Assembly (NCBI GenBank): GCA_021799475.1
Contig: JAJZAJ010000002.1
Location: 1-64,000, forward strand
Origin: Microcaldota archaeon
GTDB taxonomy: Archaea; Micrarchaeota; Micrarchaeia; Micrarchaeales; Micrarchaeaceae
Direction of reading: 5' to 3'
Length of the DNA stretch: 64,000 bases
Part shown: piece after piece, positions 2,710 through 50,830 of the stretch
Layout: every line of letters starts with the position of its first letter
Numbering within the stretch: position 1 is the first letter of the stretch
The notes under the pieces: model-generated
What the model was told of the DNA's origin: nothing
Database searches by the model: none
What the model saw: the letters and a program-made list of their open reading frames with translations, nothing else
Made by a program: the position numbers and the translations under genes

Positions 2710-4032
2710 CTATCTGAAAAGTTTTATCCTGATTATCTTCTTCCCCTCAATTTCACGAAGCAGGTAATAGATAATGAGCAGAGATATTATTGCGGCTATC
2801 GCTATCTGCAGCGCTATCGATGGCAAAGACATTATCAGTATCAGTATGAAGACCATCGCAGCTATGCTCATGTACGGGTATAGCGGACGGCTTACTGCTC
2901 CCTTCCTTCCAAAATGCAGGACTGCAGCGCTCGCCATCAGGTATGAGAATAATGTGCCTATGTTGCTTATCGCGGCAATTATGTATATGTTTCCGGAAAA
3001 CAGCATCGTTATGCCTATAACTGATGAGAAGACTATACCGCTGATTGATACGTCTCTTCTCTTGTTGTAGTGTCTAAAGAGAGACGGCAACAGCCTGTCC
3101 TTGCTCATCTGATGCAATACGCGGGATGAGCCGAGCATTATCGACAGGGTAGCCGAAGCGGTTGCTACCAACGCCCCTATGCCTACGGCAATAACTATCC
3201 AGGAGGGAGCAGAAGAGCTGCCTAGAGCGAAATTCAGAGGATCGGCATTCACCGTATAGTTCCGCGCAGGCGCGAGGAAAATTAGCGAAAGCGCAATCAG
3301 TATGTAAAGTACCATGCTTATCACGACTGCTAAGGTGAGTGCTTTCGAAGCGCCCTGCGCCTTTCCCTTGATTCTTGTAGTCAGAGTAGTAATAGCTTGG
3401 AACCCCGTGTAGGCAAAGAATATGGCCAGGCATGCCGCGAAGAACGCGCTAGGAGTAGACTGCGCCGCAGTGGGCGCGAAATTAGACAGGCTTATATGCG
3501 AGAGGCCGAAAACGAAGTATAATGCGAAGCCGATGAATAGCAACAGCACAGCTATCTTTATCGCAACCAGCGCACTCTCTGTTCTTGTCGCCCCTTTCAC
3601 CCCAAGCAGGTTCACCACAGCGAGAAGCAATATCAGGGCGATGGCATAGCCGATTGCGCTTATGCCGAATTGGGTGCCTATCAATCCAAACAGATAGGAT
3701 CCGAATCCAAGCGCAATCGCCGATATAGTGGTAGAATATCCGAAATACTGCACGACACCGGTTATAAAACCGAGCTCGCTTCCGAATGCTTTGTAAACAT
3801 AAGAGTATGATGCCCCCTCTGCCTTCGGCATGATTGAGGTAAGAACGCCGAATTCGCGTGCCACCACAAGGGCAAGTATGCCCACAACAACAAAAGCAAG
3901 GAGCGAATACGGACCAGCTAGAGATATCGCGGTCCCGCTGAGCACGAATATCCCTGCTCCTATTATCCCGCCAAGCCCAACGGCCATGGCAGCCCACACG
4001 CTTATGTCCTTTCCAGCCAAATACTCTACCAT
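2710..4032 (-). CDS. APC-family amino acid permease
   Basis: This 440-residue membrane protein has about twelve hydrophobic segments and the APC-superfamily signature near the N-terminus (GLGGIIGAGIFVLSG, helix 1), followed by the conserved PKAEGASYSYV segment between helices 2 and 3. It should move an amino acid or polyamine across the cytoplasmic membrane by proton or sodium coupling; the substrate cannot be read from the sequence. The ATG at 4032 gives a short cytoplasmic N-terminus, as usual for the family. A charged C-terminal end (EIEGKKIIRIKLFR) lies in the cytoplasm. The gap to the GTPase gene is short, so the two may be co-transcribed. Confidence 0.88.
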   Translation of the reverse strand: MVEYLAGKDISVWAAMAVGLGGIIGAGIFVLSGTAISLAGPYSLLAFVVVGILALVVAREFGVLTSIMPKAEGASYSYVYKAFGSELGFITGVVQYFGYSTTISAIALGFGSYLFGLIGTQFGISAIGYAIALILLLAVVNLLGVKGATRTESALVAIKIAVLLLFIGFALYFVFGLSHISLSNFAPTAAQSTPSAFFAACLAIFFAYTGFQAITTLTTRIKGKAQGASKALTLAVVISMVLYILIALSLIFLAPARNYTVNADPLNFALGSSSAPSWIVIAVGIGALVATASATLSIMLGSSRVLHQMSKDRLLPSLFRHYNKRRDVSISGIVFSSVIGITMLFSGNIYIIAAISNIGTLFSYLMASAAVLHFGRKGAVSRPLYPYMSIAAMVFILILIMSLPSIALQIAIAAIISLLIIYYLLREIEGKKIIRIKLFR

Positions 4033-4112: not shown

Positions 4113-4200
4113 GCAGGGATGGCGGAGCTTGGTCAAACGCGCTAGGTTCAGGGCCTAGTCCTTTAGGGGTTCGAGAGTTCAAATCTCTCTCCCTGCACCA
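4113..4200 (+). tRNA. tRNA-Leu (CAG), CCA encoded
   Basis: The acceptor stem GCAGGGA pairs with TCCCTGC. The anticodon stem CTAGG/CCTAG encloses the loop TTCAGGG (anticodon CAG). There is a class II variable arm and the T-arm GAGAG-TTCAAAT-CTCTC. CCA is encoded at 4198-4200. No intron is seen. Its 3' part is repeated 680 bp downstream. Confidence 0.95.
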
Positions 4201-4240
4201 TTTCATCATTCTTGAAAATAGGAAGAGAAAGTTTTTTATA

Positions 4241-4260
4241 TATGTATGTGCATATACATA
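4241..4260 (+). promoter_or_regulatory. Palindromic operator candidate for vapBC
   Basis: This 20-bp stretch is an inverted repeat with one mismatched pair (TATGTATGTG / CATATACATA). It lies two bases before the vapB ATG and overlaps a TATA-like run (4235-4245). VapB proteins commonly bind such palindromes to repress their own operon; binding here is inferred. Confidence 0.5.
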
Positions 4261-4262
4261 GT

Positions 4263-4493
4263 ATGACAAAAATAATATCCTTAACAAATGAGGTTTACAT
4301 GAAGTTGAAAAAGCTGAAAAAGAACAGATCATTCTCGCAAGAGATAAACGAGCTTATAGAAAAATCCAGCAGGAAGGGCGATGTTAAAACCCTTAGAAAC
4401 TTCTTGGGTGCATGGACCAAAGAAGAGGCAGCGACCGTCCAAAAAGAAATTGCTGCAGGCAGGAAGAATGCAAAACCAAGGGTCTTTTCATGA
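4263..4493 (+). CDS. vapB: VapB-type antitoxin (DUF217 family)
   Basis: This 76-residue protein starts with a ribbon-helix-helix-like segment (KIISLTNEVYMKLKKLKK) that should dimerise and bind DNA. The family-typical SFSQEINELIE helix follows, then a basic tail (AAGRKNAKPRVFS) that would thread over the toxin active site. The ATG at 4263 sits just after the palindrome; a longer frame upstream runs into the promoter and is unlikely. The stop overlaps the vapC start as ATGA (4490-4493), the usual translational coupling of toxin-antitoxin pairs. As the antitoxin it should neutralise VapC and repress the operon. Confidence 0.85.
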   Translation: MTKIISLTNEVYMKLKKLKKNRSFSQEINELIEKSSRKGDVKTLRNFLGAWTKEEAATVQKEIAAGRKNAKPRVFS

Positions 4494-4846
4494 TACTGGA
4501 TACAAGCATTTTGATAGAGATATTGGGAAATAACGTTGCGCTCCAAGATAAACTCGAACGATTAAATCAACAGGTGTCAACTACTGCGGTCACAAAATAC
4601 GAACTATTGCGAGGTCAGAGACACGAAAGCGCAATCGAAATGCTAGCAAATATGGAAATTTATGAATTTGATGGCAAAACGGCTGAGAGATGCGCCAAGA
4701 TTTTCAGAGACTTGAAGGGAAGGGGAAAATTGATAAATGAGCTTGATATTCTTATTGCGTCGATAGCGATAGCGCATGATGAACTGCTGGTGACCAGGGA
4801 TAACGATTTCAAGAGTGTGGATCATTTAAAGCTGCTAGTCCTTTAG
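4490..4846 (+). CDS. vapC: VapC-type PIN-domain toxin ribonuclease
   Basis: The 118-residue PIN domain shows the expected acidic residues: Asp4 in MILDTSILIE, the glutamate in TKYELLRG, the aspartate in NELDILIASIA and the last in TRDNDF. In this family they bind magnesium or manganese and cleave RNA, often tRNA or rRNA. The start overlaps the vapB stop. The final codons (LLVL, then TAG) fall inside the duplicated tRNA-Leu 3' end, so the insertion junction supplies the stop codon. The length is a little short of typical VapC but the whole fold is present. Confidence 0.88.
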   Translation: MILDTSILIEILGNNVALQDKLERLNQQVSTTAVTKYELLRGQRHESAIEMLANMEIYEFDGKTAERCAKIFRDLKGRGKLINELDILIASIAIAHDELLVTRDNDFKSVDHLKLLVL

Positions 4847-4885
4847 GAGTTCGAGAGTTCAAATCTCTCTCCCTGCACTATTTCA
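4835..4885 (+). repeat. Second copy of tRNA-Leu 3' end (attR-like)
   Basis: It matches 4155-4205 with two substitutions, one in the T-stem side (G to A) and one in CCA (to CTA). The first bases also encode the last residues and TAG stop of VapC. Confidence 0.85.
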
Positions 4886-4887
4886 AA

Positions 4888-5082
4888 TCGACGGCAAAGC
4901 CGGAGTCCGAATCCGTAGAGCAATTCCTAGCCTCTATTGAGGAACAGAGCAAGTCTATATCATTCCATCAGATGATAGAACCGAAGTCAAGAATACACAA
5001 AATCTACGTCTACGGCAATTGCAACTATGACTTTGTCGCTCTTTGGTGCAGAAAAGAACGGCCCACACAAAGCGCTACTTAA
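4888..5082 (+). pseudogene. Reading-frame remnant without a start
   Basis: A 64-residue open stretch ends at TAA 5080-5082 and has protein-like composition (e.g. FLASIEEQSKSISFHQ, HKIYVYGNCNYDF). It has no start codon after the tRNA-derived repeat; upstream the frame continues only through that repeat. It may be the 3' end of a gene whose front was lost when the neighbouring cassette arrived. I do not recognise the family. Confidence 0.35.
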
Positions 5083-5129: not shown

Positions 5130-5741
5130 ATGGAGTATGTCTACAAGAAAGGAGAGATAATATACCCTGACAAGACGCTCACAATGCTTGACAAGCTGGT
5201 TCTCAAGTTCATTAATGCTATCGATTTCAAATATGTCATAGTAAGCGGATATATCGCAATACTTTTCGGAAGAAGCAGAGATACCGAAGACGTCGACATG
5301 TTCATAGAGAAAATTTCCACGAAAGACTTTAGCTTATTCTGCGAGAAGATTCGCTCGTGCGGTTTCTATCTTCTCGATGCGGAAAACTCCGCAGATGCTT
5401 ACAATAGGCTGCAAGAAGGGCTTTCAGTCAGGTTTGCTGAAAATGATACAGCAGAACCGAATTTTGAGCTAAAATTCCCTAAAAAAGACACTGATTACTA
5501 CAGCATAGAACACCCGATAAAAGTGATACTAGGCAAAAAGAACATGTTCATTATTTCTCCTTTAGAACTTCAGATTGCATTCAAACTATATCTTGGCAGC
5601 GAAAAAGATGAGCTTGACGCAAGGCATTTATACGGTATCTTCAAAAATGATATTGATATCAGGCTGCTGAAAACCTTTATAGGAAAACTAAATGTTAAAC
5701 GGAAATATACTGAGGAAGTACTGGGCGAGAAACTTGATTAA
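5130..5741 (+). CDS. Nucleotidyltransferase-like protein (DUF6036/MNT-type)
   Basis: The N-terminal half carries a DNA-polymerase-beta-type nucleotidyltransferase core: a hydrophobic strand then SGYIAILFGRSRDTEDVD, where the G-R-S-R-x-T-x-D-V-D block holds the first metal-binding aspartates. A later hydrophobic helix (SPLELQIAFKLYLGS) and KDELDARHLYGI fit the DUF6036 / AbiEii-like families. Many members are toxins or tRNA-modifying enzymes of toxin-antitoxin or defence modules. It starts at the ATG at 5130 after a TATA-like stretch (5093-5102) and overlaps the next gene by 50 bp. Its exact reaction is unknown. Confidence 0.7.
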   Translation: MEYVYKKGEIIYPDKTLTMLDKLVLKFINAIDFKYVIVSGYIAILFGRSRDTEDVDMFIEKISTKDFSLFCEKIRSCGFYLLDAENSADAYNRLQEGLSVRFAENDTAEPNFELKFPKKDTDYYSIEHPIKVILGKKNMFIISPLELQIAFKLYLGSEKDELDARHLYGIFKNDIDIRLLKTFIGKLNVKRKYTEEVLGEKLD

Positions 5742-5940
5742 ATGGAACAAGAAGAAGCTTCTGAGAGATCTTAAAGAGGCCAGACAGAAGAATCGCATTG
5801 GAAATCTAGCGTTCATAGACTTATATGTAGCTTGGCTGAAAAGAACGAGCAACAAAGACTGGAGCAAACGCCAAAAGGTGTTCTCTGACAGCATATACAA
5901 GGCCAACAAACGGCTGAAATTAAACCAGACGCATTCTTAA
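5692..5940 (+). CDS. Small basic partner of the nucleotidyltransferase
   Basis: This lysine/arginine-rich 82-residue helical protein (KKLLRDLKEARQKNRIGN, WLKRTSNKDWSKRQK) overlaps the 3' end of the nucleotidyltransferase gene by 50 bp. A TTG at 5734 would shorten it and reduce the overlap. Position and size suggest a partner of the upstream gene, perhaps an antitoxin or accessory subunit. No family is recognised, so this rests on context alone. Confidence 0.5.
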   Translation: MLNGNILRKYWARNLIKWNKKKLLRDLKEARQKNRIGNLAFIDLYVAWLKRTSNKDWSKRQKVFSDSIYKANKRLKLNQTHS

Positions 5941-6363: not shown

Positions 6364-7149
6364 CTAATCCGCCCCATGCGGGCGGGTCCTAAACCCGTCT
6401 GTCGGAAGCAGCTGCATTATTTCATCGATATTTTCATACTGCAATATTTTCCCTATCTTTTTTGCTGCATCGGATTTCCTGTCATTGCCCTGCGATATCC
6501 TTACATACATTTCCGGTTTCTCAAGCTTTTCAAACATGATTTCCGGTACAACATTCAGCGTGCCGTCTTTGATGAATGCGACCAGGGCAAGCACCATATC
6601 TCTATACCATTCTCTTTCTCCAGATAGGAGGAAGCTTCCGGTTCCCAATGTACCTTTAGCCTGCGACTTGCTGACCTGGTCCCTTCTCATTGCATATACA
6701 TCAACAGTTCTCTGCCCTTCCTTCCAAGCGCTTGAATGGCATGCGGCGAATTGTGCCGCTTCCTCCCTTACTCCTTTCTCTGCACTCATGCCTGCCTTCA
6801 ATATCGTAACCTGAGCTCCGAATATGTCTGCATGGAAGAACAGGTCATTATCTTCAAAATGCCTTGCATTGAGCAGCTCGTTCTGGTGAGCATCCCTGCC
6901 TCCTATAACAAGATGCCCATCACTGGTGAAGAACCAGCGGAACTTTTCATACCATCCTTTATCTCTTTTGACTATTATGCGCCTGCCATCTTTAGGCACA
7001 AAATCCTTTTTCGCCTTCTCAAGCCTCTTCCTCAACTCTGTTATTGCCTTCTCTGCGCCCTCTTTCTTTTGCTTAAGCTTCTTTGCCCTGCTGAAATATG
7101 CATCTGCATTCTGCTGCGCGGACTTCGTGAAGTCTATCTTTGTGCGCAT
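6364..7149 (-). CDS. NFACT-R domain protein (C-terminal half of an RqcH/Rqc2-like protein)
   Basis: Residues 1-60 form a charged coiled coil (NADAYFSRAKKLKQKKEGAE). They lead into an NFACT-R/DUF814 domain with FTSDGHLVIGGRDAHQNELL and a downstream DLFFHADIFGAQVTIL. In full-length RqcH proteins (about 600-700 aa) this is the second half; the NFACT-N and helix-hairpin-helix parts that bind stalled large subunits are absent here. Full-length relatives add C-terminal tails to stalled nascent chains. The ATG at 7149 lies five bases after the secE stop, so the two form an operon. Whether the N-terminal half is encoded elsewhere cannot be seen. Confidence 0.85.
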   Translation of the reverse strand: MRTKIDFTKSAQQNADAYFSRAKKLKQKKEGAEKAITELRKRLEKAKKDFVPKDGRRIIVKRDKGWYEKFRWFFTSDGHLVIGGRDAHQNELLNARHFEDNDLFFHADIFGAQVTILKAGMSAEKGVREEAAQFAACHSSAWKEGQRTVDVYAMRRDQVSKSQAKGTLGTGSFLLSGEREWYRDMVLALVAFIKDGTLNVVPEIMFEKLEKPEMYVRISQGNDRKSDAAKKIGKILQYENIDEIMQLLPTDGFRTRPHGAD

Positions 7150-7417: not shown

Positions 7418-8569
7418 ATGATGAAGCCTGGCAATGTTATCGTTGTGCATTTCGGCGAGATATGGCTCAAAGGTCGAAACAGGAGCTATTTTGTCGGAAT
7501 CCTGCTTGAGAACATACGCGGAGCGCTAAAAGGCACAGGATGCGTCGTCCAGAAGATGAGAGACAGGTTCATAGTAAAAATTGAGAAGAAGGCTGATAAG
7601 GAGAAGGCAATGGATTTGCTTTCGACTGTTTTTGGAATATCGTGGTATGCGCCAGTGACTACTGTCGGGAATGATATGGAGGAAATAGTAAAGACCGCAG
7701 TTTCGATGATGGACAAAAAGAAGACCTATCGAGTTGCAGCCAGCAGGACATATAAACAGCTGCAGTATAATTCGATGGATATAACGAGAGAGGTAATAAA
7801 GGAAGCGATTGCAAAGGGATATAACGTCGACAAGGATGCAGCTGACACAATATACATAAATGTCATGAAAGGAGAGACGATGCTGTACAGCGACAAGAGG
7901 CAGGGGGCTTATGGGCTTCCTGTAGGATGCTCCGGTAAGGCAATAGTGCTTCTTTCAGGAGGGATAGACTCCCCGGTAGCTGCGGTATACGCGATGAAGA
8001 GGGGGCTGCTGCCAATATACCTGCATATACACGCATTTCCAAAGAACAGCACCGCAGAAACGTCAAAAATGAGAAATATATTGCAGGCGCTAAGCAGGTA
8101 CTCCGGGCAATCGAAATGCTATTATGCGCCTGCCCATATGTTCCAGGCCGCAGTGCTTGGCAAGGCCGATAGGCTAGAGCTCGTGCTCTTCAAGAGGTTT
8201 GCATATAAGCTTGCGGAAGAGGTGGCGAAGTCGGAAAAAGCCAAGGTGATAGTAACCGGAGAAAGCTTGGGCCAGGTCGCATCACAGACTGCATCCAATC
8301 TTATCGCAACGGAACATCTATCTGAATTTTTCATGATGCGGCCGCTGATAGGCTTTGACAAGCAGGAGATAGTAAACGAAGCGAAAAGGCTCGGGACTTA
8401 CGAGCTATCGATAAAGGAGTATCCGGACGTCTGCTCTATAAACGCAAAGAACCCGTTGACATCAGCAAGAAGGAACATCGTAGACAGGCTCTATGAAGAA
8501 TGCGGCCTGGACGAAGCGCTGGAAAGGACCATCGAGAAAAGCACCGCAGTCACGATATCTAAGAGATGA
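7418..8569 (+). CDS. thiI: tRNA 4-thiouridine synthetase ThiI
   Basis: The 383-residue protein has an N-terminal ferredoxin-like region and THUMP domain (to about residue 160) that holds tRNA. A PP-loop ATPase domain follows, with the signature LLSGGIDSPVA and the later VTGESLGQVASQTASNL. It adenylates U8 of tRNA, which then receives sulfur to become 4-thiouridine. The paired cysteine in YPDVCSINAKNP fits the family, and there is no rhodanese domain, as normal in archaea. Two ATGs (7418, 7421) stand in tandem. It converges on the Rio1 gene with an 11-bp overlap and diverges from secE. Confidence 0.93.
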   Translation: MMKPGNVIVVHFGEIWLKGRNRSYFVGILLENIRGALKGTGCVVQKMRDRFIVKIEKKADKEKAMDLLSTVFGISWYAPVTTVGNDMEEIVKTAVSMMDKKKTYRVAASRTYKQLQYNSMDITREVIKEAIAKGYNVDKDAADTIYINVMKGETMLYSDKRQGAYGLPVGCSGKAIVLLSGGIDSPVAAVYAMKRGLLPIYLHIHAFPKNSTAETSKMRNILQALSRYSGQSKCYYAPAHMFQAAVLGKADRLELVLFKRFAYKLAEEVAKSEKAKVIVTGESLGQVASQTASNLIATEHLSEFFMMRPLIGFDKQEIVNEAKRLGTYELSIKEYPDVCSINAKNPLTSARRNIVDRLYEECGLDEALERTIEKSTAVTISKR

Positions 8570-9347
8570 CGGTTTTGATCGCTTCCTCATAGCTCATTTT
8601 CGTCTTGTACCTTTTTGCGAAATAACTTACTATATTCCTGATGTCGCGTTTCAGGAATGTGCTTGCATTCGGATGCTCAAGCGTAACAGCCTGCCCAAAA
8701 TCTATGAAATACGGAATCCGGCCCTCATCCTTGACAAGAATATTGTACTCGCTGACATCCGCATGCACAAGCTCTCTTAGGTACAGCTTCCTGATGTTAT
8801 CGAGTATGTCAGCCAGCATCCTATCCGGATCATAAACATCCACATCCCTGAGCTGCGGTGCCGGAGCGCCATCCTCCTCTATCAGTTCCATCGCAAGTAT
8901 GCTGCCGTGCGACATTATCGGCTTTGGCGCATTCACCCCCGCCTTGGCGGCAATCTCAAGGTTTCCAAACTCCTTCTGGCACCATACCTGCGCAATCCCT
9001 ACCTTTTTCTTCCTCGATATCTTTTTCGAGAAGCGCGGATCCCCAGTTATATAGTCCGCCATCGTGAAAAATGAGGTGGTTTCAATCCTGAAGAATTTCA
9101 GCACCAGCATTCCGATATCTTTTACGAGATCCGAGTTTCCAGGGACAGCCAGATATATGTCAGCTTCCTTCCCTCTAGCTATAATCGATTCTAATTTCTC
9201 CACCACTCCCTTGTTATAGAATTTGCTCAGGTATTTCATTGTCCTTTCATCAAATATTCCGGAATCTACCTTGCGTTGTTCCTTCAGCATATATTTGTCC
9301 CTTGACGGTGACTTTCTCTTTCCAAGACGCCTTGCCATAAATTCCAT
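8559..9347 (-). CDS. rio1: RIO1-type atypical serine kinase/ATPase
   Basis: This 262-residue kinase has the glycine-poor RIO ATP loop IIARGKEADIYLAV, the lysine in MLVLKFFRI, the catalytic loop HADVSEYNIL and the metal-binding IDFGQAV. Those are the RIO1 signatures. Rio1 acts in late maturation of the small ribosomal subunit. The ATG at 9347 is taken as start; MARRLGKRKS at 9338 is nearly as good and would give the usual basic N-terminus. The gene's 3' end overlaps that of thiI on the other strand. Confidence 0.93.
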   Translation of the reverse strand: MEFMARRLGKRKSPSRDKYMLKEQRKVDSGIFDERTMKYLSKFYNKGVVEKLESIIARGKEADIYLAVPGNSDLVKDIGMLVLKFFRIETTSFFTMADYITGDPRFSKKISRKKKVGIAQVWCQKEFGNLEIAAKAGVNAPKPIMSHGSILAMELIEEDGAPAPQLRDVDVYDPDRMLADILDNIRKLYLRELVHADVSEYNILVKDEGRIPYFIDFGQAVTLEHPNASTFLKRDIRNIVSYFAKRYKTKMSYEEAIKTVIS

Positions 9348-9430
9348 CTGCTTTGCCGCTTACTGCTTTACTGCTTACTGCTTTACATTACCTTTTTATT
9401 GCTTCTCTTCTTATTGATATCGGTGTCGCG

Positions 9431-9733
9431 ATGCCGAAATCTAACCCGAAAATGCAAAAACAGATAATGGTCATAGATCCAACGCTCCAGTACGAAAGGA
9501 GGCTGAAATATCTCGAAAAGCACGGGGGCTGGGAGGTATTCAAGATGATATTCTGGGGTTCCTACATATTTATAATCGGCATGATACTGCTAATATTCTA
9601 TAAGACTTCGCCGACGCAAACGATAAGCCTGTACGCTTTCTTTGGCTGGTCGCTGATAATATTTGCCATGTTCTACATAGTATACGGATTTGCTCTCTCT
9701 CTGCACTACAAGCTTATGAGGAAGTACGCGTAG
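9431..9733 (+). CDS. Small membrane protein with two helices, upstream of SecF
   Basis: The 100-residue protein has a basic, soluble first half (KQIMVIDPTLQYERRLKYLEK) and two membrane helices (about residues 42-60 and 70-90). The ATG at 9431 starts a clean basic N-terminus; the longer frame upstream is hydrophobic by chance in an intergenic stretch of repeats (TGCTTTACTGCTTAC). It lies 107 bp before secF on the same strand. No family is recognised; a link with secretion is only suggested by position. Confidence 0.65.
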   Translation: MPKSNPKMQKQIMVIDPTLQYERRLKYLEKHGGWEVFKMIFWGSYIFIIGMILLIFYKTSPTQTISLYAFFGWSLIIFAMFYIVYGFALSLHYKLMRKYA

Positions 9734-35837: not shown

Positions 35838-35912
35838 GCTCCCTTCGTCTAGCTCGGCCAAGGACACGGGGCTTTCAACCCCGCAACTCGGGTTCAAATC
35901 CCGAAGGGAGCA
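35838..35912 (+). tRNA. tRNA-Glu (TTC)
   Basis: GCTCCCT pairs with AGGGAGC. The anticodon stem CGGGG/CCCCG encloses CTTTCAA (anticodon TTC). The T-arm is TCGGG-TTCAAAT-CCCGA. CCA is not encoded. An integrase gene begins 73 bp after it, and the last 11 bases recur at 53301-53311. Confidence 0.95.
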
Positions 35913-35985
35913 TTTTCATTTACGAGGAGGGCAGGTTCATAGCTCATACCAAAAGCTATATAAAGAGGGGCTTTCATAAGCTATT

Positions 35986-37188
35986 ATGCCATACGTGGAA
36001 GACCAGGCGACGCTCGATGGCGTGTTCGCCCGCGTGACGAAAGACCCGCTCATATCCAGGCAGAACGCCAAATACATAGAGGCGCATATCGAATTTCTTA
36101 AGGCCAAGCAGTCGAACATAAGAACACTGATCAAGCACCTCTATCACTTAAGGAGATTCTTCAGGGTGCTGAAGAACCCCAAAAAGGATTTCAAGCGGAT
36201 TACAAGGGCGGACATGCAGGCCGCAATGGCCGAGATGGAAGGCACCGAATACAGCAGCGAGACGAAAAGGAACATAAAGGTCGTTGTCAAGTACTTCTGG
36301 AAGCACCTGAAAGGCGACGACGAATTCTATCCGGTCGAGGTCAGGTGGATTGACACGTCAGGAGACAGGAAGAACAGGAAGATGCCGGAAGACCTGCTCA
36401 CCGAAGAGGAGATCAGAAGGATGATAGACTCAGCGACCACCCTCAGGAACAAGGCGATCATTGCAATCCTGTACGACACCGGGTGCAGGATAGGCGAATT
36501 GCTCAATATGAGAAAGAAGGACGTAAACCTGATTACCATGCCGGCGCACGTCCTTTTGGACGGTAAAACTGGGCAGAGGCAGGTTCCGGTCATATTCAGC
36601 GCGCCCTATGTGGCGCAGTACCTGAACTTCATAAAGGAAAAAAGGCCGAACGAGCCCATGTGGACATCGTACAACAACGGCAGGGATACGGACAGAAAGA
36701 CGGATTACAGGGGCATATCAAAGATGCTCAAGGTTGCCGCAAAGAAGGCGAAGATAGAGAAGAGGGTGCATCCGCATCTCTTCAGGCACAGCAGGGCAAC
36801 GGCATACGCCAACAAGCTCACGGAGCAGCAGCTGAAGAACATGTTCGGATGGACCAACAGCTCCACCATGGCGGCTACCTACGTTCACCTGAGCGGCAGG
36901 GACATAGACAGCGCGGTAATGCAGGCAAACGGGCTAAAGCCGCGCGAGGAGGCTACAGAGCCAAAATTAAAGGCGAAAGTGTGCGAAAGATGCCAGTTTC
37001 CCAATACCGTGGATTCGAGGTACTGCAACAGATGCGCCCTGCCGCTGGACGCCGAGCTTGCGGCGGAAACGCAGAATAAGGAAGGCAGCATGAAGCAGGC
37101 GATAGCCGACGCCCTGAAGGACCCGAAGATCATGGAGGACATAATCCATAACTACCTATTGCTGAAGGCGAAGAAAGGAAAGGTATAA
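35986..37188 (+). CDS. Tyrosine recombinase/integrase with zinc-ribbon tail
   Basis: The 400-residue protein has an N-terminal SAM-like core-binding domain (to about residue 115, with TLIKHLYHLRRFFRVL) and a catalytic domain. That domain holds the conserved Arg in DTGCRIGELLNM, HLFRHSRAT (His-x-x-Arg) and the nucleophile Tyr in AATYVHLSG. Near the C-terminus is a zinc ribbon (CERCQFPNTVDSRYCNRC), also found in haloarchaeal and methanogen integrases. It would recombine DNA at an attachment site. Lying directly downstream of tRNA-Glu in the same direction, it probably integrated the island there. Confidence 0.92.
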   Translation: MPYVEDQATLDGVFARVTKDPLISRQNAKYIEAHIEFLKAKQSNIRTLIKHLYHLRRFFRVLKNPKKDFKRITRADMQAAMAEMEGTEYSSETKRNIKVVVKYFWKHLKGDDEFYPVEVRWIDTSGDRKNRKMPEDLLTEEEIRRMIDSATTLRNKAIIAILYDTGCRIGELLNMRKKDVNLITMPAHVLLDGKTGQRQVPVIFSAPYVAQYLNFIKEKRPNEPMWTSYNNGRDTDRKTDYRGISKMLKVAAKKAKIEKRVHPHLFRHSRATAYANKLTEQQLKNMFGWTNSSTMAATYVHLSGRDIDSAVMQANGLKPREEATEPKLKAKVCERCQFPNTVDSRYCNRCALPLDAELAAETQNKEGSMKQAIADALKDPKIMEDIIHNYLLLKAKKGKV

Positions 37189-37264
37189 AGGCTATCTCTA
37201 TATACCAAAAGGCTTAAATATTTAGTAGACTATAATAGTGTATACTAAAGTAAAAGGTCTTAGG

Positions 37265-37432
37265 ATGAAGAAATTCGCAAATACGATAATGGTCGCCCTT
37301 GACGATCAGCTTTCGGACTGGCTCAACGAGAAGGTCAGCCAGGGATACAAGAAGGCTACGTTTATCCGAAAGGTGCTTGAGGATTACCGCAAGGCAGAGG
37401 TGATACGCAATGGTAACGCGAGTTCAAACTGA
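37265..37432 (+). CDS. Ribbon-helix-helix-like DNA-binding protein
   Basis: The 55-residue protein (MKKFANTIMVALDDQLSDWL) has a short beta strand then two helices (ATFIRKVLEDYRKAEVI), the CopG/Arc pattern. It probably represses nearby genes. An ATG at 37265 with GG nearby is preferred over GTG 37238. The upstream region contains TTAAATATTTAG and an imperfect inverted repeat (TAGTA...TACTA, 37222-37246), perhaps its own operator. It overlaps the next gene by 23 bp. Confidence 0.65.
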   Translation: MKKFANTIMVALDDQLSDWLNEKVSQGYKKATFIRKVLEDYRKAEVIRNGNASSN

Positions 37433-37631
37433 GGAAGAGAAGTACGCCGCCAGAATCCAGGCGTATGCCGAGGCCTTTGATTTCTTCATAGAAGAGCCCG
37501 AGGCTGTTTCAGACCACACGCTCAAGATTTTCCTTGACTACTTCAAGCAGAGGGCGGAACAGGAGCGAGAAAGGCAGGCCAAAGATCCGGGAACGCAGAA
37601 ATCGCTATATAACGCCCATAAGAGGAGCTGA
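37410..37631 (+). CDS. Small charged helical protein, 73 aa
   Basis: This helical acidic/basic protein (EEEKYAARIQAYAEAFDFFI, IFLDYFKQRAEQERERQAK) begins inside the end of the ribbon-helix-helix gene, so the two are translated together. I do not recognise the family. It is the last gene before convergent AbiE-type genes. It may be an element accessory protein. Confidence 0.55.
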   Translation: MVTRVQTEEEKYAARIQAYAEAFDFFIEEPEAVSDHTLKIFLDYFKQRAEQERERQAKDPGTQKSLYNAHKRS

Positions 37632-37725
37632 AGCGCAAGATATTCTGACTTTCGTGTATACTCCCTATACAGACCAAAACCAAGTTAGAACTCAAATATA
37701 GGCAAATGATGGCATTTCTAGCTAT

Positions 37726-38655
37726 CTAGGCCCAGCCCGTAAATTTCTGCAATAATCTGTTAGAGTAAGCCTCTAGCTTCTTCTTGAACGCATAAAAATC
37801 CTCATTATTGATGTTTTCCAACAGCATCTCGTCTTCACTTTTTGTATCATTAAGGGTTATGCCTGATTTTGCCTTTTCAGTCATATTGGCTCTGTATTTA
37901 TCGTACATGTTCGCTGCGAATTTTATCTTTCTAACTGCCTCTTTTTCAACATCTTTTGGTTCCATCTTGAATTTCTTATGGAGCATGTAGAGGTCAAAGA
38001 AGTCCCTGGCCTTTATGCCTCTTCTTGTCAGTATCGCCCTTACCTTTTCTGCGGCTATCTCACGTTTGTCATAAACAACGAAGTGTAATGGTTTGATATA
38101 CTCCTTGTACTCCGGATACAACAGTCCAATATCTTTCTTCGAGTCGATTACGAGTGTTTTCAATCTTTTTCTTGTTGTTTTGAAACACATCTCCTCTACA
38201 AAGTTTATCTGCACTTTTATGAAAGTCCTTCTCTTAAGCACGGCTGAATCATACCATATCTTGTAAGTAACAAACCTATTGCTGCCTCCGAATTCCATAT
38301 ACTCCCTGTTGCCTTTCTGATTTTTGAAGTCAAATCCTCTTTTTGCCGCTATGCCAACGAAAACATCGGCTATTTCTGTTTCAAGCTTGGAAAGTGTGGC
38401 GCTGACCTTCTTTTTGCTTATTCCGGTTAATTTCTTCTGATGCAAATATGTAAAATCAATGTCTTCTGAGAACCTAAAATAACCAGTATAAGCCTTTATC
38501 AGGCATGTTCCTCCCTTAAATGCGAAGTTTTTTGAGAAAAGCTGGTTTGAGGATAGATCGCTGAGCAGCTGCTGCAAGATTAAGTCTTTTTCAATAAGAT
38601 CGGTTCTTTTGTAATCTAATGCTTTGCCGATGTCATTTATCAGGTTTATATTCAC
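37726..38655 (-). CDS. AbiEii-type nucleotidyltransferase toxin
   Basis: The 309-residue protein contains the AbiEii/AbiGii signature: NFAFKGGTCLIKAYTGYFRF then SEDIDFTYL, with the aspartates binding metal for nucleotide transfer. A conserved basic segment KREIAAEKVRAILTRRGIKA and DFFDLYMLHKKF follow later. AbiE toxins transfer nucleotides to tRNA or a similar target and cause abortive infection. Its start overlaps the antitoxin-like gene by four bases (ATGA), so they form a type IV-like toxin-antitoxin pair. The length is normal. Confidence 0.9.
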   Translation of the reverse strand: MNINLINDIGKALDYKRTDLIEKDLILQQLLSDLSSNQLFSKNFAFKGGTCLIKAYTGYFRFSEDIDFTYLHQKKLTGISKKKVSATLSKLETEIADVFVGIAAKRGFDFKNQKGNREYMEFGGSNRFVTYKIWYDSAVLKRRTFIKVQINFVEEMCFKTTRKRLKTLVIDSKKDIGLLYPEYKEYIKPLHFVVYDKREIAAEKVRAILTRRGIKARDFFDLYMLHKKFKMEPKDVEKEAVRKIKFAANMYDKYRANMTEKAKSGITLNDTKSEDEMLLENINNEDFYAFKKKLEAYSNRLLQKFTGWA

Positions 38656-39287
38656 TTTAGCACCTTTTCTACCATGTTACTGACTGCCTTTGGATAATTC
38701 TTAGAGTATTTTCTTAAAGTCTCTTTTTTTACACCGCTGGCCCATTCGGCCACATCTATTAATATCCTTTCCTCTGGGACTCCATTATATCTCCAGAAGT
38801 ATATGAAATCCAGTATGGTCTTTTCACGATCAGAGTATCTTAAAGCTCCATTTTCTACAATTCCGAAACCAAGAAGTTTCTTAGATACCTTATTAAATTT
38901 AAATTTATGCCCATCTATCTCGATCGGCTTAGCCCTGAATATCTCAGAGCTGATCACCTCATCTATCCCAAACTCCTCGTGGGTCATATTGTTGATTTTT
39001 AGCGCGCTATGAAGGCCAAAATACCAGTCTTTAACCCCTTTAAGCGCGATTCCCCTTGCAACTAACTCCATATAGCTGTAATGCTCATTGCCCAATTTGG
39101 TCTCATCAATACTCTTAAGGTAAAAAATACCCCTGAATATCCGTATAAGATAGTCGTTCCTTAGCAGATAATTAACAATGCTGTCATAATTAAATTTAAA
39201 TATTTTAGCGTAAGTATGCAATTCCTTTTCAGTAACAAACTCTTTCTTCTCCAGATAGAGTTTTTTTAACATTAGATTCATTGTCAT
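38652..39287 (-). CDS. AbiEi-type antitoxin/transcription regulator
   Basis: The 211-residue protein has an N-terminal winged-helix region (ELHTYAKIFKFNYDSIVNYL, then YLIRIFRGIFYLKS). A domain follows with WYFGLHSALKINNMTHEEFG and later DREKTILDFIYFWRYNGVPE, as in AbiEi/AbiGi relatives. It is expected to repress the operon and protect against the toxin. It precedes the toxin gene with an ATGA overlap. Upstream is a short, very AT-rich stretch (39296-39332, ATATTAAGATATATAAAG) that could hold the promoter. Confidence 0.8.
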   Translation of the reverse strand: MTMNLMLKKLYLEKKEFVTEKELHTYAKIFKFNYDSIVNYLLRNDYLIRIFRGIFYLKSIDETKLGNEHYSYMELVARGIALKGVKDWYFGLHSALKINNMTHEEFGIDEVISSEIFRAKPIEIDGHKFKFNKVSKKLLGFGIVENGALRYSDREKTILDFIYFWRYNGVPEERILIDVAEWASGVKKETLRKYSKNYPKAVSNMVEKVLK

Positions 39288-39393
39288 TCATATCACAATA
39301 TGATATAAATAGACATATTAAGATATATAAAGCTATCTGCTTTATTTGTGTTTTACAACAAATTTAAGGTTATATTAGAATGTCTGCCTCAAT

Positions 39394-42324
39394 TTAGTAT
39401 TCTTTATCCCCTACATACTCTCTGAGTGTTCCTTTTACTTTAGATTTGTTAAGTTTTGCATATTCCAGTATTTCTTCTGTAGTGGCTCCCTGTTTACTCA
39501 TACTATAGAATGTATCTTGTCCTAGTAAGACATAACTCCATTCACTGCTCATTCTGTCATCCACTTTCAATTCATTTACCTTATCCACCCAATCAATAGC
39601 CGCAAGTCTCTTGCTTCTAACATTCCGATTATCTAAATCTCTATCAGATTTTGTTTCTACAAGGTAAATTTTATTACCAATTTTTACAATAAAATCAGGA
39701 TAATAATGAGCAAGTAGGCCATCTTCACGTATATAAACTATATTGGCAAATTCGTGGTAATACTCGTTTATTTTTATGAATGCCTTCACTTTTGAGTCCG
39801 CGTCAATAAATTGCATGAAAGCTTTTTCAAGGCCACCACCATTTGAGGGGTAAGATATTTTTTCATAGATGGTCTTAGATAAAGTTAGTGCATACGTCTC
39901 TCTTACTTTAGTTTCACTAATTTCTGAGAAGTATCTCTTGATAATGGTTGCTTCGGTTATCTTCAAATCATTCTGCAGATCGTATACTGATTTTGCTATG
40001 TTTTTTACAATGTGTTGGGTTATTCCTTTTTGTGCTATTAACAAAATGCGCCAGTTGTTATCTTCTAATGGGTCAAAGCTCTTGCCGAAAAGTTTATGCC
40101 GTATATAGTCATCAGTTAATTTTGCAACTACTGCTTTATTTATTTGCATGACGGGGAACTTCTTTTGGGATTTCTTACCAACCCTCACGTGAATTACTGA
40201 AACCGCATCAACTATTTTTTCGATGAACGAATTATAGCTCTTTGCAGTAAATAATGTAGGCGGAACAGTATATTCACCAAATTTCGTTTTTACTGTAAGC
40301 TCCTCACCGTAAAATACATCGCCCTTCATTTTGCTAATCAATGGCATTAGTTCTTCGATTGTTACTGGAGAGGGTTCTAGCTTTTCAACTGAAAGTTTGG
40401 CTTCTGCAAACTCTTCCTCCTTATCATGTATTATTATTATCCAGAAAAGGTCATAATCTTTGTAATTCGATTTAAGCCCAACATTTATTATATCTCCAAC
40501 TACTCTATCCTTCTTTGTTAGCTCGTCTACCTTACCTACCATTCCTTTCAGAACTCTGTCGTAATACTCGATAAAGTTCGGATGCTCTATTATACTCAAT
40601 ATGTCCATGTAATTGTTAGGTTCTTCCTTTTTAACAAGAAGCCTTTCTCTGTTTTCTGCTTTAATTTCATCATATTGGTGCTCTCTCCACATGAGTCTTA
40701 AGCCCCTACCTATAAGCTGCTCCAAAAGAACATAAGAGGAACTGGACCGCAGCGGAACAATTACACATATATTATTTACATCGAATCCTTCTCTCAACAT
40801 AAGAACTGAAACTATTATCTTTGGCTTGTCGTGTCTATCAATATTGAAAAGCTTCTGTTTTATCTCCTCCCATTCACCTTCGTTAACATCACCTTTCTTG
40901 TTAGAATGAATTTCCATTAACTCCTCATCCGAATAGCCTTCTTTCTTAAGAAAGTCTATCACATATGGTACGACAAATGTGTTCTCACAAACAATTAGCA
41001 TTTTAGGGTACTTTGTCTTGTCTAGCCTTGTAAATCCGTCCTCCAGTATTTTTAATTTCGTTATCCCCGCTCTTATCATTACTTTCTGTCCGTCAGAAAG
41101 ACTGGTTACGCTTCTCCCTTCCCTTTCTGCCTTAAAATCTAAATCTTCCAATGGCACAGATGCAAATTCCTTTCGTTTATCAATAGCTACGGTCTTTACC
41201 AGCCCCTGCTTTATTGCCTCGACTAGCTCAAAGTTTATTATAATATGTGGGAAGTGATTTTGAACTCTGTTCTGGCCGCTACCGGTTACGATATATGGAG
41301 TTGCTGAGAAATCGATCTGCACAAATCTACTTTTTTTATTAGCGGATATCGTATCTATAGCTTGTTGCCATTTTTTTTCAAGAACTTCATCAGAAACTTT
41401 CATTTCTCCTAAATGATGTGCTTCGTCATTGAAAATAAGAAGGTTTCCCAAATTTTTAAGATAATCCAGCTCCATTCCCCTCAGATATTGATTATCAAGT
41501 TCTTCAAGTGAATGTCCTGCAGAAGTACCTGGAGTTATAGGTAATAGCCGTTTGACAGCTGCTTGTGGATTATCTAAAGGGGTATCTAACTCGCTATTAT
41601 ACTCTTCATCTTCAGCCAGTAAATGCCAGTTAGTTATGGCTATTAATCCATCGCCAGTCACCTTTTTGCCGATTTCCTCTTTCTGTGCAACACAGCTTTG
41701 AAGAAATCCGAATATTTCCGCCTTGTAAGATGATGGTAAAAACAATTTTTCGAATCTCTTAAAGTCTGATTGCTCAAAATCTCTAGCACCATCTTCTTTC
41801 CTTTTACCAAGATAAGCATCAAGAAGTCTTTCATAAACTATAATACCTGGTGCTACCAACAGAAAGTTTTTTGTGAATTTATCATTTGCAATCTCTTCAT
41901 ATTTCGAATTAAGGTACTGCCAAATAAGTAAAGCATCAAGCACCCATGTTTTCCCAGTGCCTGTGGCCATCTTTATGCAGTATTTTGGGTAATCATATTT
42001 CCCTTTCTTTAAATCGAGCACGTCCATCTCTTGTAACAGTTCAGGATAAATAGACATATACATGTCCTTAACGCCACTGACTTTAAGGATTTCATGGACA
42101 TATATTGTGTTTAGCACTGCCTGCCATTGGCCTTCGTGAAAATTAATGTCTCTTACATCAGAGAAGTTACCTTTAGGATCCCACCACTTCAAGAGTTCTT
42201 TTGTTACTGGCGTTACCTTTTCAATAAAACTTCCATCGTTCCATGCTTTATTTACTAATTCTGTAATTCGTGCAGCGAGCTTTAGAGGTATATCCCTTGT
42301 TCCAGATGATTTTACATTTACCAT
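39394..42324 (-). CDS. Type III restriction enzyme, Res subunit
   Basis: The 976-residue protein is a DEAD/H-box helicase-nuclease. Walker A is in KMATGTGKTWVLDALL (about residue 120), Walker B in IFNDEAHHLGE, and helicase motif VI in EQLIGRGLRLM. The C-terminus has a PD-(D/E)xK nuclease site (HYYPDFIVKIGNKIYLVETK). Type III enzymes cut after meeting inversely oriented sites. It begins at an ATG overlapping the methyltransferase stop by one base (TAATG). Codon usage is AT-rich. The length is about as expected for a Res subunit. Confidence 0.92.
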   Translation of the reverse strand: MVNVKSSGTRDIPLKLAARITELVNKAWNDGSFIEKVTPVTKELLKWWDPKGNFSDVRDINFHEGQWQAVLNTIYVHEILKVSGVKDMYMSIYPELLQEMDVLDLKKGKYDYPKYCIKMATGTGKTWVLDALLIWQYLNSKYEEIANDKFTKNFLLVAPGIIVYERLLDAYLGKRKEDGARDFEQSDFKRFEKLFLPSSYKAEIFGFLQSCVAQKEEIGKKVTGDGLIAITNWHLLAEDEEYNSELDTPLDNPQAAVKRLLPITPGTSAGHSLEELDNQYLRGMELDYLKNLGNLLIFNDEAHHLGEMKVSDEVLEKKWQQAIDTISANKKSRFVQIDFSATPYIVTGSGQNRVQNHFPHIIINFELVEAIKQGLVKTVAIDKRKEFASVPLEDLDFKAEREGRSVTSLSDGQKVMIRAGITKLKILEDGFTRLDKTKYPKMLIVCENTFVVPYVIDFLKKEGYSDEELMEIHSNKKGDVNEGEWEEIKQKLFNIDRHDKPKIIVSVLMLREGFDVNNICVIVPLRSSSSYVLLEQLIGRGLRLMWREHQYDEIKAENRERLLVKKEEPNNYMDILSIIEHPNFIEYYDRVLKGMVGKVDELTKKDRVVGDIINVGLKSNYKDYDLFWIIIIHDKEEEFAEAKLSVEKLEPSPVTIEELMPLISKMKGDVFYGEELTVKTKFGEYTVPPTLFTAKSYNSFIEKIVDAVSVIHVRVGKKSQKKFPVMQINKAVVAKLTDDYIRHKLFGKSFDPLEDNNWRILLIAQKGITQHIVKNIAKSVYDLQNDLKITEATIIKRYFSEISETKVRETYALTLSKTIYEKISYPSNGGGLEKAFMQFIDADSKVKAFIKINEYYHEFANIVYIREDGLLAHYYPDFIVKIGNKIYLVETKSDRDLDNRNVRSKRLAAIDWVDKVNELKVDDRMSSEWSYVLLGQDTFYSMSKQGATTEEILEYAKLNKSKVKGTLREYVGDKEY

Positions 42325-44441
42325 TAGCTCACTTCTCTAATAGAATCGCTCTCAAAACCAAAAACATCAACAGCTCTTACGCATACTTTTCTCTTTCCTT
42401 TAATTTTTGGAACCAGAAGTTTGGTCTTTCTATCTACTCTTAATTTATCCTCATGGTTCTCTCTGTAATCTTGCCATTTACTCTTGAAAATCTCTCCGTC
42501 ATATTCAGGATCTATGCTCCAGTATTCTATAAGACTCAATGGATCCTTTTCTATTACCTTTTCAAGCTTCTCCTTATCTTCTTTGTCTAACGGAAGTGCA
42601 TCCGGAGACAAAAGTACATAGTTATCCAACTCTACCTCTAATATATCGTTTTCTTTATCCGATTCAATCTTCTTAATTGGTTTTATGGTCAAATATTGTA
42701 GGGATGAGAATCTGACTTTGCCGTCTTTTATGAGCTTTTCATAATCTGCCTTGTGTCTCAGTTTTTCTAAAATATCAGCAGGTATTACTAACACCTGCAT
42801 CTTTTCAGATTCCATGTCCTTCTTAAAGTTTTCTATTATCCTGCTTATGTTAAGATCGAAGTTCCAACCTAAAACAACTACCTTTTCCCACCCTCCCATG
42901 TAAGACGCTCTTAGTTCCTGGGCTTTTTTAAGTGTTGCGTTTCCCGTCATTCTTGTAGGTGAGTCTACATAAACAAGAGTTTTGCTCTGTTTAATATAAC
43001 CAAGATTATTCGGAGTGCCTTCCTGCATTGGAAAAGGTAATGCGCCATATAGATTTATTATGACATGCGCAAGGTCTCCTATGCTTTTGAATTGAGATCG
43101 TTCAAACTGTTCTTTCTGATAATCACCAATCGATTGGTACAAAAATGGATCTGCTTCTTGGTCGATGAGACTTTTCCTAGTAATCATACATGCGGGTTTA
43201 CCTAAGTCGGATATAACCCACTGTCTTCCTAATCTTTCTGCTACTTCTGCAGTTGTTCCTGACCCAACAAAAAAGTCACCCACTATCGAATTTTTATTTG
43301 AAGACGTTTCAATAATCCGCTCGAGCAATGCTTCTGGTTTTTGAGTTGGATATTTTACCTTTTCTTTGGCTTGTGAATTTACAGGGTAAATATCATCCCA
43401 CAGGGTACCTATCTTTACACCTTCCATATTCTCAAAATATTGTTTTTTTAACGGCATGGCGCCTGGCGAAGTCTGAACGATTAAACCTTGCGCCTCATAG
43501 TCCAGCATTTTTTCTTTGGTGGTTGCCCAAGTTTCCAAGAAACCTTTATACTCATATTTTAAGTTCGGTCTGTTCTTATTCAAATTCAACAATGGAATCA
43601 ATGCAAACCGCTTCCCAGCTGGAATTTTCTTCGATTCTCTAAACGATTTCATTTCTGACTTCGTAAATTTCAAATAACTTCCATCTTCCTGTTCAAAAAA
43701 ACAATAGTATCTATCAACTTTATCCTCGTCATACTCTTTATATTGCATATTCCATATAAAGTCATTCGATTTCGTGTAAAAAAATATATTGTTATGTTCC
43801 AAACCGTAATTCTTGAAACCTGTGCTTTTTGCTCTAGTCTGCTTCCAAATAATCTCGTTCTGAAATTTATCCTTTCCAAATATTTCGTCCATAATGACCT
43901 TTACGTAGTGTCCTACCCGCGAGTCTATGTGTACATAAATAGAGCCTCGCTCGCTTAGAAGCTCCCTCATCATTATTAGTCTTGGGACTATCATTTCGAG
44001 GTATGATTTTGTTCCGTCTTTCCATGTGTCAGAATATGCAAATTGTTCTATAACCGTAGGTTTTTGCTCTATGTCAATAGTGGGCAGGTGTATTTTCATC
44101 CTATAATCTGTTTTGCTATCATACGGCGGGTCTATATATATTAGATCGACCATACCGCGCATTGATGGTAATTCGGTTGTTGGGTCCCCTGCCAAGAGCG
44201 CCTGTATTGTTAGTAAGTTATCCCCGTAAATTAGCCTATTCAAAAGACCATTAACCATCGATTTCTTTACAACTTGACCAGTAAACGCAGCTAGGCCGCC
44301 TTTAGCTTTTGTCGGAAGCACTAGCTCATTAGTTTGCAGTGTTACTCTTTGTGATTTCGACAATCCATCAAGCAAGCGCTGCGCTTCCTTTTTCCCACTT
44401 TCGACTATTTTAGGAAGTTCTTCTATCAACGAATCCCTCAT
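42324..44441 (-). CDS. Type III DNA methyltransferase, Mod subunit
   Basis: This beta-class methyltransferase has the catalytic motif DLIYIDPPYDSKTDYRM near residue 115. Further on it has VGDFFVGSGTTAEVAERLGR, the SAM-binding FxGxG motif, in the beta-class order, and a target-recognition region lies between them. It should add a methyl group to adenine or cytosine N4 at a recognition site that cannot be read from sequence. The C-terminal half (after about residue 470) is typical for Mod proteins. It precedes res with a TAATG overlap and lies 81 bp after the Argonaute gene on the same strand. Confidence 0.92.
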   Translation of the reverse strand: MRDSLIEELPKIVESGKKEAQRLLDGLSKSQRVTLQTNELVLPTKAKGGLAAFTGQVVKKSMVNGLLNRLIYGDNLLTIQALLAGDPTTELPSMRGMVDLIYIDPPYDSKTDYRMKIHLPTIDIEQKPTVIEQFAYSDTWKDGTKSYLEMIVPRLIMMRELLSERGSIYVHIDSRVGHYVKVIMDEIFGKDKFQNEIIWKQTRAKSTGFKNYGLEHNNIFFYTKSNDFIWNMQYKEYDEDKVDRYYCFFEQEDGSYLKFTKSEMKSFRESKKIPAGKRFALIPLLNLNKNRPNLKYEYKGFLETWATTKEKMLDYEAQGLIVQTSPGAMPLKKQYFENMEGVKIGTLWDDIYPVNSQAKEKVKYPTQKPEALLERIIETSSNKNSIVGDFFVGSGTTAEVAERLGRQWVISDLGKPACMITRKSLIDQEADPFLYQSIGDYQKEQFERSQFKSIGDLAHVIINLYGALPFPMQEGTPNNLGYIKQSKTLVYVDSPTRMTGNATLKKAQELRASYMGGWEKVVVLGWNFDLNISRIIENFKKDMESEKMQVLVIPADILEKLRHKADYEKLIKDGKVRFSSLQYLTIKPIKKIESDKENDILEVELDNYVLLSPDALPLDKEDKEKLEKVIEKDPLSLIEYWSIDPEYDGEIFKSKWQDYRENHEDKLRVDRKTKLLVPKIKGKRKVCVRAVDVFGFESDSIREVS

Positions 44442-44522
44442 CTAGCTACCCTCTTATAATTATGACACTCTAAGTAAGCCTTCTTTAGCAACCTAACCTT
44501 AAAAAGCTTGCACATTTGACTG

Positions 44523-47478: not shown

Positions 47479-47522
47479 AAAGATATTATTACTCTCTAAT
47501 AATACTTAACTTTATCGTATTT

Positions 47523-49843: not shown

Positions 49844-50824
49844 TCACCTCCCGGCCCCATACGGATTGAAAGGTTTATCCCGTATGAGCATGAAATAAAT
49901 AATTCTTGCAAGTCTCCTCGAACATGCAACAACAGCCTTCTTCGGTCCTATTCGTTTTGAAAGTTCGTAATACTTTTCTGTTATTATCGAATCTTTGCAG
50001 TGCATAACGTGCATCCATGTACATTCGATCAGAATTGTGCGCAGCGTTACATTTCCTGATTTAAGGTGTCCCTTCCATTCAACCGATCCTGATTGATGTG
50101 TCGATGGACACAGGCCGGCGTAAGAGAAGAGATGAAATTCTGTCGGAAATCTATGAACATTCCCTATCTGACTTGCGATAGTGAGTGCAGATGTGTAACC
50201 TACACCTGGAATAGTGTCTATTAATTTCGCGTAATGACTCTGCATTGCCTTTTCTTTTACTGCGCCATTGAAGTCCGAAATTCTTTCGGTATGTTCTTTG
50301 TATAGTTTTGCAAGTTCCCTCAATGACAGATGTTCCGACATCTCTAGTTCATTGACCGATTTCTTTGTCAACGAACCCAATTCTACTCCGTATTTGTGCA
50401 CCTCGTACCTTATCCTGTTCTTTGTCGCTGTCCTTTGCCTCACAAAGAAGTCTCTTGCGCTACAGAGGTTCCTGTCCTCCCTTATCTCCTTCGGCGGTAG
50501 ATAAGAGGTCGGAAGGTAATCCGCATTGTACGCGTCCAACAATTTGTGTGCATCATTCTTATCGGTCTTGTTCGGCGACTTTGCAATTAACCTCATCGCA
50601 GCTGGATGCGCAACAACTATTTTACCGCTGCGGCGTTCCAGTAGGTCCACAACGGGGTAAAGATTATTTCCCGCCTCTATTATGAAGGTGTTTCCTTCAC
50701 ATGCAGGTATTATCGAATCAAAACCTTCCTGTGTTGTATCCACATACCCCTCGTCTTCTACCATGTCGCCTTTCTGTACGACGACATAACTCCTTCTCTT
50801 TCCGATATCTATTGCTATCTCCAT
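49844..50824 (-). CDS. IS110-family transposase
   Basis: The 326-residue protein has the RuvC-like N-terminal domain of IS110 (MEIAIDIGKRRSYVVV, FIIEAG, SPNKTDKNDAHKLLDAY) and the C-terminal domain with LIDTIPGVGYTSALTIAS and STHQSGSVEWKGHLKSGNV, where a serine is thought to act. IS110 elements lack terminal inverted repeats and use a bridge RNA made from the non-coding end. The ATG at 50824 is preferred to GTG 50830. The gene is intact, so it could still be active. It sits between the unknown operon and the DGR. Confidence 0.92.
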   Translation of the reverse strand: MEIAIDIGKRRSYVVVQKGDMVEDEGYVDTTQEGFDSIIPACEGNTFIIEAGNNLYPVVDLLERRSGKIVVAHPAAMRLIAKSPNKTDKNDAHKLLDAYNADYLPTSYLPPKEIREDRNLCSARDFFVRQRTATKNRIRYEVHKYGVELGSLTKKSVNELEMSEHLSLRELAKLYKEHTERISDFNGAVKEKAMQSHYAKLIDTIPGVGYTSALTIASQIGNVHRFPTEFHLFSYAGLCPSTHQSGSVEWKGHLKSGNVTLRTILIECTWMHVMHCKDSIITEKYYELSKRIGPKKAVVACSRRLARIIYFMLIRDKPFNPYGAGR

Positions 50825-50830
50825 ATACAC

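Follow-up and report, generated by a model that had tools for sequence, protein, structure and literature searches.

How did two genes that carry no integrase come to lie between two copies of the 3' part of a tRNA gene? This question is raised by the tRNA-Leu(CAG) locus near the start of the window, the whole stretch of 64,000 nucleotides that was analysed, which belongs to genome G000, an 814-kb assembly in 3 contigs read in the stretches around its tRNAs. Our analysis favors, with a probability of roughly 70%, the view that vapBC forms a minimal non-autonomous integrative cassette, with its integrase supplied by another element. The features of the locus are as follows.

2710-4032, reverse strand: amino acid permease, conserved upstream chromosomal flank (domain search and locus comparison)
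4113-4200, forward strand: tRNA-Leu(CAG), intact target gene (ARAGORN)
4155-4205, forward strand: left repeat (attL), the 3' part of tRNA-Leu(CAG) (repeat search)
about 4171-4198, forward strand: core within the left repeat, T-arm and acceptor strand (scan of tRNA-Leu loci)
4231-4260, forward strand: predicted vapBC promoter/operator, TATA-like TTTTTTATATATG and imperfect inverted repeat TATGTATGTG/CATATACATA (from the sequence; putative function)
4263-4493, forward strand: vapB antitoxin, 76 aa, PF02697 VAPB_antitox (Pfam E 1.2e-14)
4490-4846, forward strand: vapC toxin, 118 aa, PIN domain PF01850 (Pfam E 4.5e-15)
4835-4885, forward strand: right repeat, read as the attR of the vapBC cassette, once the attL of an older element (repeat search, alignment)
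4903-5043, forward strand: remnant, N-terminal part of a tRNA-Leu tyrosine integrase (tblastn E 1e-15)
5130-5741, forward strand: nucleotidyltransferase-like gene, possible cargo of the older element (weak Pfam/NCBIfam matches only)
5692-5940, forward strand: 82-aa ORF overlapping the nucleotidyltransferase-like gene, possible partner (ORF list; weak GmrSD_C match, E 0.004)
6364-7149, reverse strand: NFACT-R domain gene, conserved downstream chromosomal flank (locus comparison)

The two repeats are 51 nt long, identical at 49 of 51 positions (96%) and spaced 680 apart. The next best match to the 51-mer in the remaining window has 24 mismatches, against 2 for the right repeat, which excludes chance as the cause; no third att copy was found further right within the window, where the best candidate has 13 mismatches in 30. 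ARAGORN, repeat search and Pfam thus confirm the layout described in an earlier sequence-only reading, with vapB and vapC alone between the copies, and its claim that the interval lacks an integrase also holds, the two genes being the whole gene content. Conjugation or mobilisation genes were not seen in the 680-bp unit, and Rfam searches of the window and of three other loci (L032, L037 and L083) returned tRNAs and RT-16 alone.

The vapB gene lies upstream of vapC and overlaps it by ATGA at 4490-4493. VapB scores 55.2 bits against PF02697 (cut-off 27.9), while VapC conserves the acidic PIN residues (D, E, D and D positions) and matches the NCBIfam VapC family with an E value of 2.2e-16, yet under the curated cut-off. 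With a PIN toxin that has its acidic residues and a small overlapping antitoxin gene upstream, the pair is predicted to be a VapBC type II toxin-antitoxin system. In alignments, a stretch resembling 4231-4260 is also found 5' of vapB in genomes G093 and G109. The second repeat copy had been thought to supply the last codons and the stop of vapC, and this claim stands only in part: the stop codon does lie inside the right repeat (CTA GTC CTT TAG), but VapC relatives free of the repeat have nearly identical C-termini (NLKLLVI-stop and NLKVLVL-stop), so the last codons are native to VapC and overlap the repeat rather than being added by the insertion. The closest VapC, with 65% identity, is found in G093, a member of another family, directly behind tRNA-Leu(CAG); a named match of the VapC search was a Micrarchaeota MAG. 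The G093 unit ends in CTAGTCCTTTAG, as in the window, and the contig breaks there; the tRNA of G093 itself reads TTTCCTTTGTGG, not CTAGTCCTTTAG, at the matching place. This difference suggests that the vapBC cassette carries its own att segment, although conserved codons could account for part of the match.

The DNA to the right of vapBC points to an earlier insertion. From the right repeat into the integrase remnant it is 88.6% identical to the tRNA-Leu(CAG)/integrase junction of congener G002, and in autonomous integrase-bearing elements the integrase lies directly right of attL. Because the remnant stands right of the second repeat in this same order, the second repeat was formerly an attL, with vapBC arriving later and in front of it. 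We regard this order of events, in which the left end of an older element received vapBC, as established from the arrangement of the DNA; the resident integrase of the older element may still have been intact when vapBC arrived. The distance from tRNA-Leu(CAG) to the end of the NFACT-R gene is 36 bp in G001 and 90 bp in G008, both congeners, and 2167 bp in the window, and congener G001 is, on this comparison, the empty site that was sought in close relatives.

The same layout recurs elsewhere with other contents. In a scan of 59 tRNA-Leu loci in 35 genomes of the Micrarchaeota-like order, whose frequencies are not unbiased since loci with visible partial copies were preferentially chosen, 17 integrase-less att-to-att intervals were found at tRNA-Leu, at least 14 of them with a toxin-antitoxin-type pair (several antitoxins being assigned by position and appearance only, in the absence of a Pfam hit) and eight in the size range of 0.7-0.8 kb. 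Most of the genomes are fragmented assemblies, probably metagenome-derived. The contents include:

VapBC: the window, 680 bp
MraZ/AbrB-like protein and PIN: G003, 716 bp; G005, 689 bp
small antitoxin-like protein and PIN: G009, 790 bp; second site of G003, 772 bp
PIN_2 and small antitoxin-like protein, then MntA-like protein and HepT: G024, 784 bp and 808 bp
DUF4258 and DUF2283, a putative pair: G015, 797 bp
AbiEi and AbiEii, three lineages: G000, G036 (twice), G028, G022 and G001, 1.4-1.6 kb, one of 4 kb with extra genes
archaeal ATPase: G000, 1232 bp
AlkZ-like protein: G012, 1393 bp
a set with DUF6155 and a RelE-like gene: G036, 2280 bp

The expectation that cassettes would be found between tRNA-derived repeats in other genomes is thus borne out in kind, by the G093 VapC and by many other toxin-antitoxin cassettes with the same layout. 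tRNA-Leu(CAG) and tRNA-Leu(TAG) are tandem insertion sites in this order, and tandem arrays on a shared att site occur at three loci (L032, L037 and L074). Extra copies of the tRNA 3' 30-mer at the 59 loci all lie on the tRNA strand, with none on the opposite strand; of the 21 repeats detected by BLAST, 20 reach the tRNA 3' end and none starts from the 5' end. The common att core comprises the T-arm and acceptor strand, and contains the palindrome GAGAG-TTCAAAT-CTCTC. A scan of 44 tRNAs in this genome yielded, besides the two tRNA-Leu genes, only tRNA-Ala(TGC) and a weak copy behind tRNA-Thr(TGT). At tRNA-Ala(TGC) (L162, G000:C3, 13479-13550), the next 817 bp form an integrase-less interval with a NUDIX gene; the copy of the tRNA 3' end has 4 mismatches in 28, and an ATPase gene comes next.

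The AbiE cassettes appear to move as units. AbiE-B of this genome and its counterpart in G036, a genome of another family, share 95.7% identity over 1548 bp; the similarity begins at the att core, with none left of the core, and the genes preceding the two tRNAs have 65-73% identity. A DNA search across 164 genomes detected AbiE-B in 14 of them and AbiE-A in 16. Eight AbiE-A copies start 3-25 bp past a tRNA-Leu core, at both CAG and TAG genes and in constant orientation (seven match the query copy at 82-100% identity and one at 69%), and five AbiE-B copies start within the same distance of a core, with at most 2 core mismatches. Both cassettes recur across genera and two families with mostly 81-97% DNA identity, as against 65-73% for the flanking genes compared. 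Some AbiE copies lie off tRNA-Leu cores (L206, L207, L210, L224 and L232) and are without a left att core; these start at nearly the same position as the copies next to tRNAs, which is unexplained. As a separate observation, the 1500-bp flanks of G119 and G074 (L207 and L208) are 99.7% identical despite the placement of these genomes in different families, which suggests that one of the two assemblies is probably contaminated.

The alternative that survives best is decay in place, whereby a larger integrase-bearing element lost all but the toxin-antitoxin pair and the att sites, the toxin punishing loss, so that the unit would be a CIME formed by deletion. Tandem integrations are known in archaea, and missing integrases there have usually been ascribed to loss after integration (PMC8371274). 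Decay is also visible nearby, both in the integrase remnant and in the G015 interval, which retains about 80-95 bp of an integrase-element left end and may therefore itself be a decayed element. However, the eight intervals of 0.7-0.8 kb contain differing gene pairs and span nearly core to core, integrase-less AbiE cassettes recur in many genera with high identity, the G093 vapBC relative likewise has no integrase between tRNA and vapB, and the sole integrase trace that the window holds at this locus lies outside the vapBC interval. On balance, decay in place seems unlikely. A second alternative, in which the tRNA-Leu and cassette DNA of a relative was taken up and recombined via the tRNA and its flanks without an integrase, could draw on the conservation of tRNA-Leu genes and on repeats that might act as short homology; it is nevertheless quite improbable, as the flanking DNA is just 65-73% identical, one cassette occurs at different isoacceptors, array positions and gene neighbourhoods, and left boundaries fall at the core and not at variable points. 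A simple local duplication of the tRNA, next to which vapBC would lie by chance, was named at the outset as a possible source of the repeat and would fit a partial tRNA copy in direct orientation, but it is refuted by the empty site of the congener, the absence of copies from the tRNA 5' end and the recurrence of the pattern with different genes in relatives.

Elements that encode an integrase also insert at this tRNA-Leu core, among them an intact one at tRNA-Leu(TAG) in this genome. Its integrase (G000:C1, 210045-210857, locus L032; PF00589, E 1.1e-12) is encoded behind the tRNA, and its nearest curated model is the archaeal XerA, far under the cut-off. Relatives are found in 99 of the 164 genomes, with up to 12 per genome, and the catalytic R, HxxR and Y positions are kept in at least 91% of 33 aligned integrases. 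At 26 of the 30 loci that were inspected, the integrase directly follows a tRNA gene (Leu, Glu, Asn, Ser, Arg, Pro, Asp, Lys, Gly and others), and at many integrase loci part of the tRNA recurs 2-14 kb downstream. Since the stretch CGAGAGTTCAAATCTCTCTCCCTGCAC is shared without a difference by the tRNA-Leu(TAG) core and the vapBC repeats, the tRNA-Leu(TAG) integrase could act on the vapBC cassette. One observation runs counter to this: the integrase-bearing elements have in common some 190 bp of non-coding sequence up to attR, 70-88% identical among the loci compared (L083, L138, L156, L136, L137, L142, L143, L145, L035 and L037), and a search of the minimal cassettes for this region did not find it. 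The region is possibly an arm-type integrase binding region and, if the integrase needs it as an arm site, cassettes with the core alone could not serve as substrates.

The integrase type at the tRNA-Glu site (35986-37185), which the sequence-only reading had suggested testing on this sequence, is unlikely to be the enzyme and was rejected; it has no significant similarity to the tRNA-Leu-site integrase (E 0.3), and no tRNA-Glu repeat was found in the remaining 28 kb. Carriers of viral or plasmid origin were rejected as well: close relatives of the tRNA-Leu integrase and of VapC, and one exact att core pattern, were not found in IMG/VR, and PLSDB held distant integrases only. The XerA-like tRNA-Glu integrase belongs to a defence island behind tRNA-Glu (35838-47500), which also contains an AbiEii gene (37726-38655) with a likely AbiEi, a type III restriction-modification pair (39394-44441) and an AlbA_2 protein. 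Further right, an IS110-family transposase (49844-50830; PF02371, PF01548) stands between the defence genes and a reverse transcriptase apparently split into two frames (52096-53230), which an RT-16 RNA (51777-51986; RF03019, 78.9 bits) precedes. At another locus (L046), this pair recurs, with an RT-16 RNA (9517-9699) and a reverse transcriptase (8295-9386) immediately beside the attR of a VapC cassette.

In the proposed mechanism, the cassette would consist of a complete toxin-antitoxin operon, with its putative own promoter/operator, and one copy of the tRNA-Leu attachment site. A tyrosine integrase from another element would act in trans on the att core, and a circular cassette would recombine core to core with the tRNA-Leu 3' end or with a resident att repeat, the crossover presumably falling within the T-arm. 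Such an event would keep the tRNA whole and leave the cassette flanked by two direct repeats, and repeated insertions would build stacked arrays. At the present locus, vapBC would have entered the left end of the older element, whose integrase is now a remnant, and the toxin may help to retain the cassette. Excision, integration and action in trans are inferred, and the original notion of a cassette moved in trans appears to fit best. At L032 (about 9042-9130), similarity to a longer cargo gene of L039 breaks off where an att core lies, and the matching position in L039 (+1700 to +1900 from the tRNA end) is occupied by the palindrome AGAGGC-ATAA-GCCTCT; this boundary could be a product of secondary-site recombination that makes a new cassette end.

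These observations suggest that toxin-antitoxin operons could travel between genomes as single integrase-free units, beyond their role as passengers of larger elements. Islander, a census of tRNA islands, discards candidates that lack an integrase or are shorter than 2 kb (PMC4383910), and such filters would cause these cassettes to be systematically overlooked. In addition, DPANN archaea gain a defined integrase family, att core and cassette set that are directly testable. More tentatively, and with less confidence than in the cassette itself, one may envisage an integron-like gene-cassette system of DPANN archaea, with a tRNA-Leu T-arm/acceptor site, a tRNA-Leu-specific tyrosine integrase acting in trans, and a pool made up mostly of individual toxin-antitoxin or defence operons that are exchanged among tRNA-Leu genes of different genera and families.

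Archaeal integrons have been described (PMC9668308), and their cassettes resemble the present ones in being small, with one or two genes and a single recombination site per cassette, arranged in arrays and served by a tyrosine recombinase. The present cassettes differ in that the shared site is a tRNA-Leu T-arm/acceptor segment and probably not attC, there is no single attI platform, and each appears to have its own promoter; the tRNA-Leu integrase scores 27 bits against the integron integrase model TIGR02249, where the cut-off is 265. Archaeal tRNA islands (SSV, pTN3 and thaumarchaeal elements; PMC8371274, PMC6563490) share the tRNA 3' target, att repeats, tyrosine integrase, tandem insertions, and VapBC and defence genes as cargo; among the cryptic elements of the thaumarchaeal census, the smallest measures 2.6 kb (PMC6563490). 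Unlike these islands, which carry their own integrase, the present cassettes are without one; the 680-bp unit has the direct flanking tRNA and 3' fragment of such an island, but no internal integrase. Tycheposons use tRNA att sites and have tRNA copies in their islands, but are larger and carry a tyrosine recombinase and characteristic modules. None of these modules was seen in the present cassettes, which would probably differ in this from the tRNA-site elements named tycheposons (PMC10872708).

The closest known kind are the CIMEs and accretion arrays at tRNA and tmRNA genes. Att-bounded integrase-less units stacked at a target gene are known from Streptococcus (PMC5704250), and the ssrA gene of Dehalococcoides has 15 islands without an integration module (PMC3146451). 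As in those systems, tandem att-bounded units without integration genes lie at the 3' end of a target gene beside integrase-bearing elements, and newcomers insert into an existing att site; the vapBC unit keeps attL and attR, lacks integration genes and stands in tandem with an integrase remnant. No description of such elements in Micrarchaeota or DPANN archaea was found in the open-access literature. CIMEs and accretion arrays are bacterial and represent decayed conjugative or mobilizable elements or large islands, whereas the present cassettes are archaeal, reach down to 0.7 kb and hold one toxin-antitoxin operon each, and it is this small form that seems to spread. What is new here is thus the archaeal host group, the gene-cassette size and the mostly toxin-antitoxin cargo.
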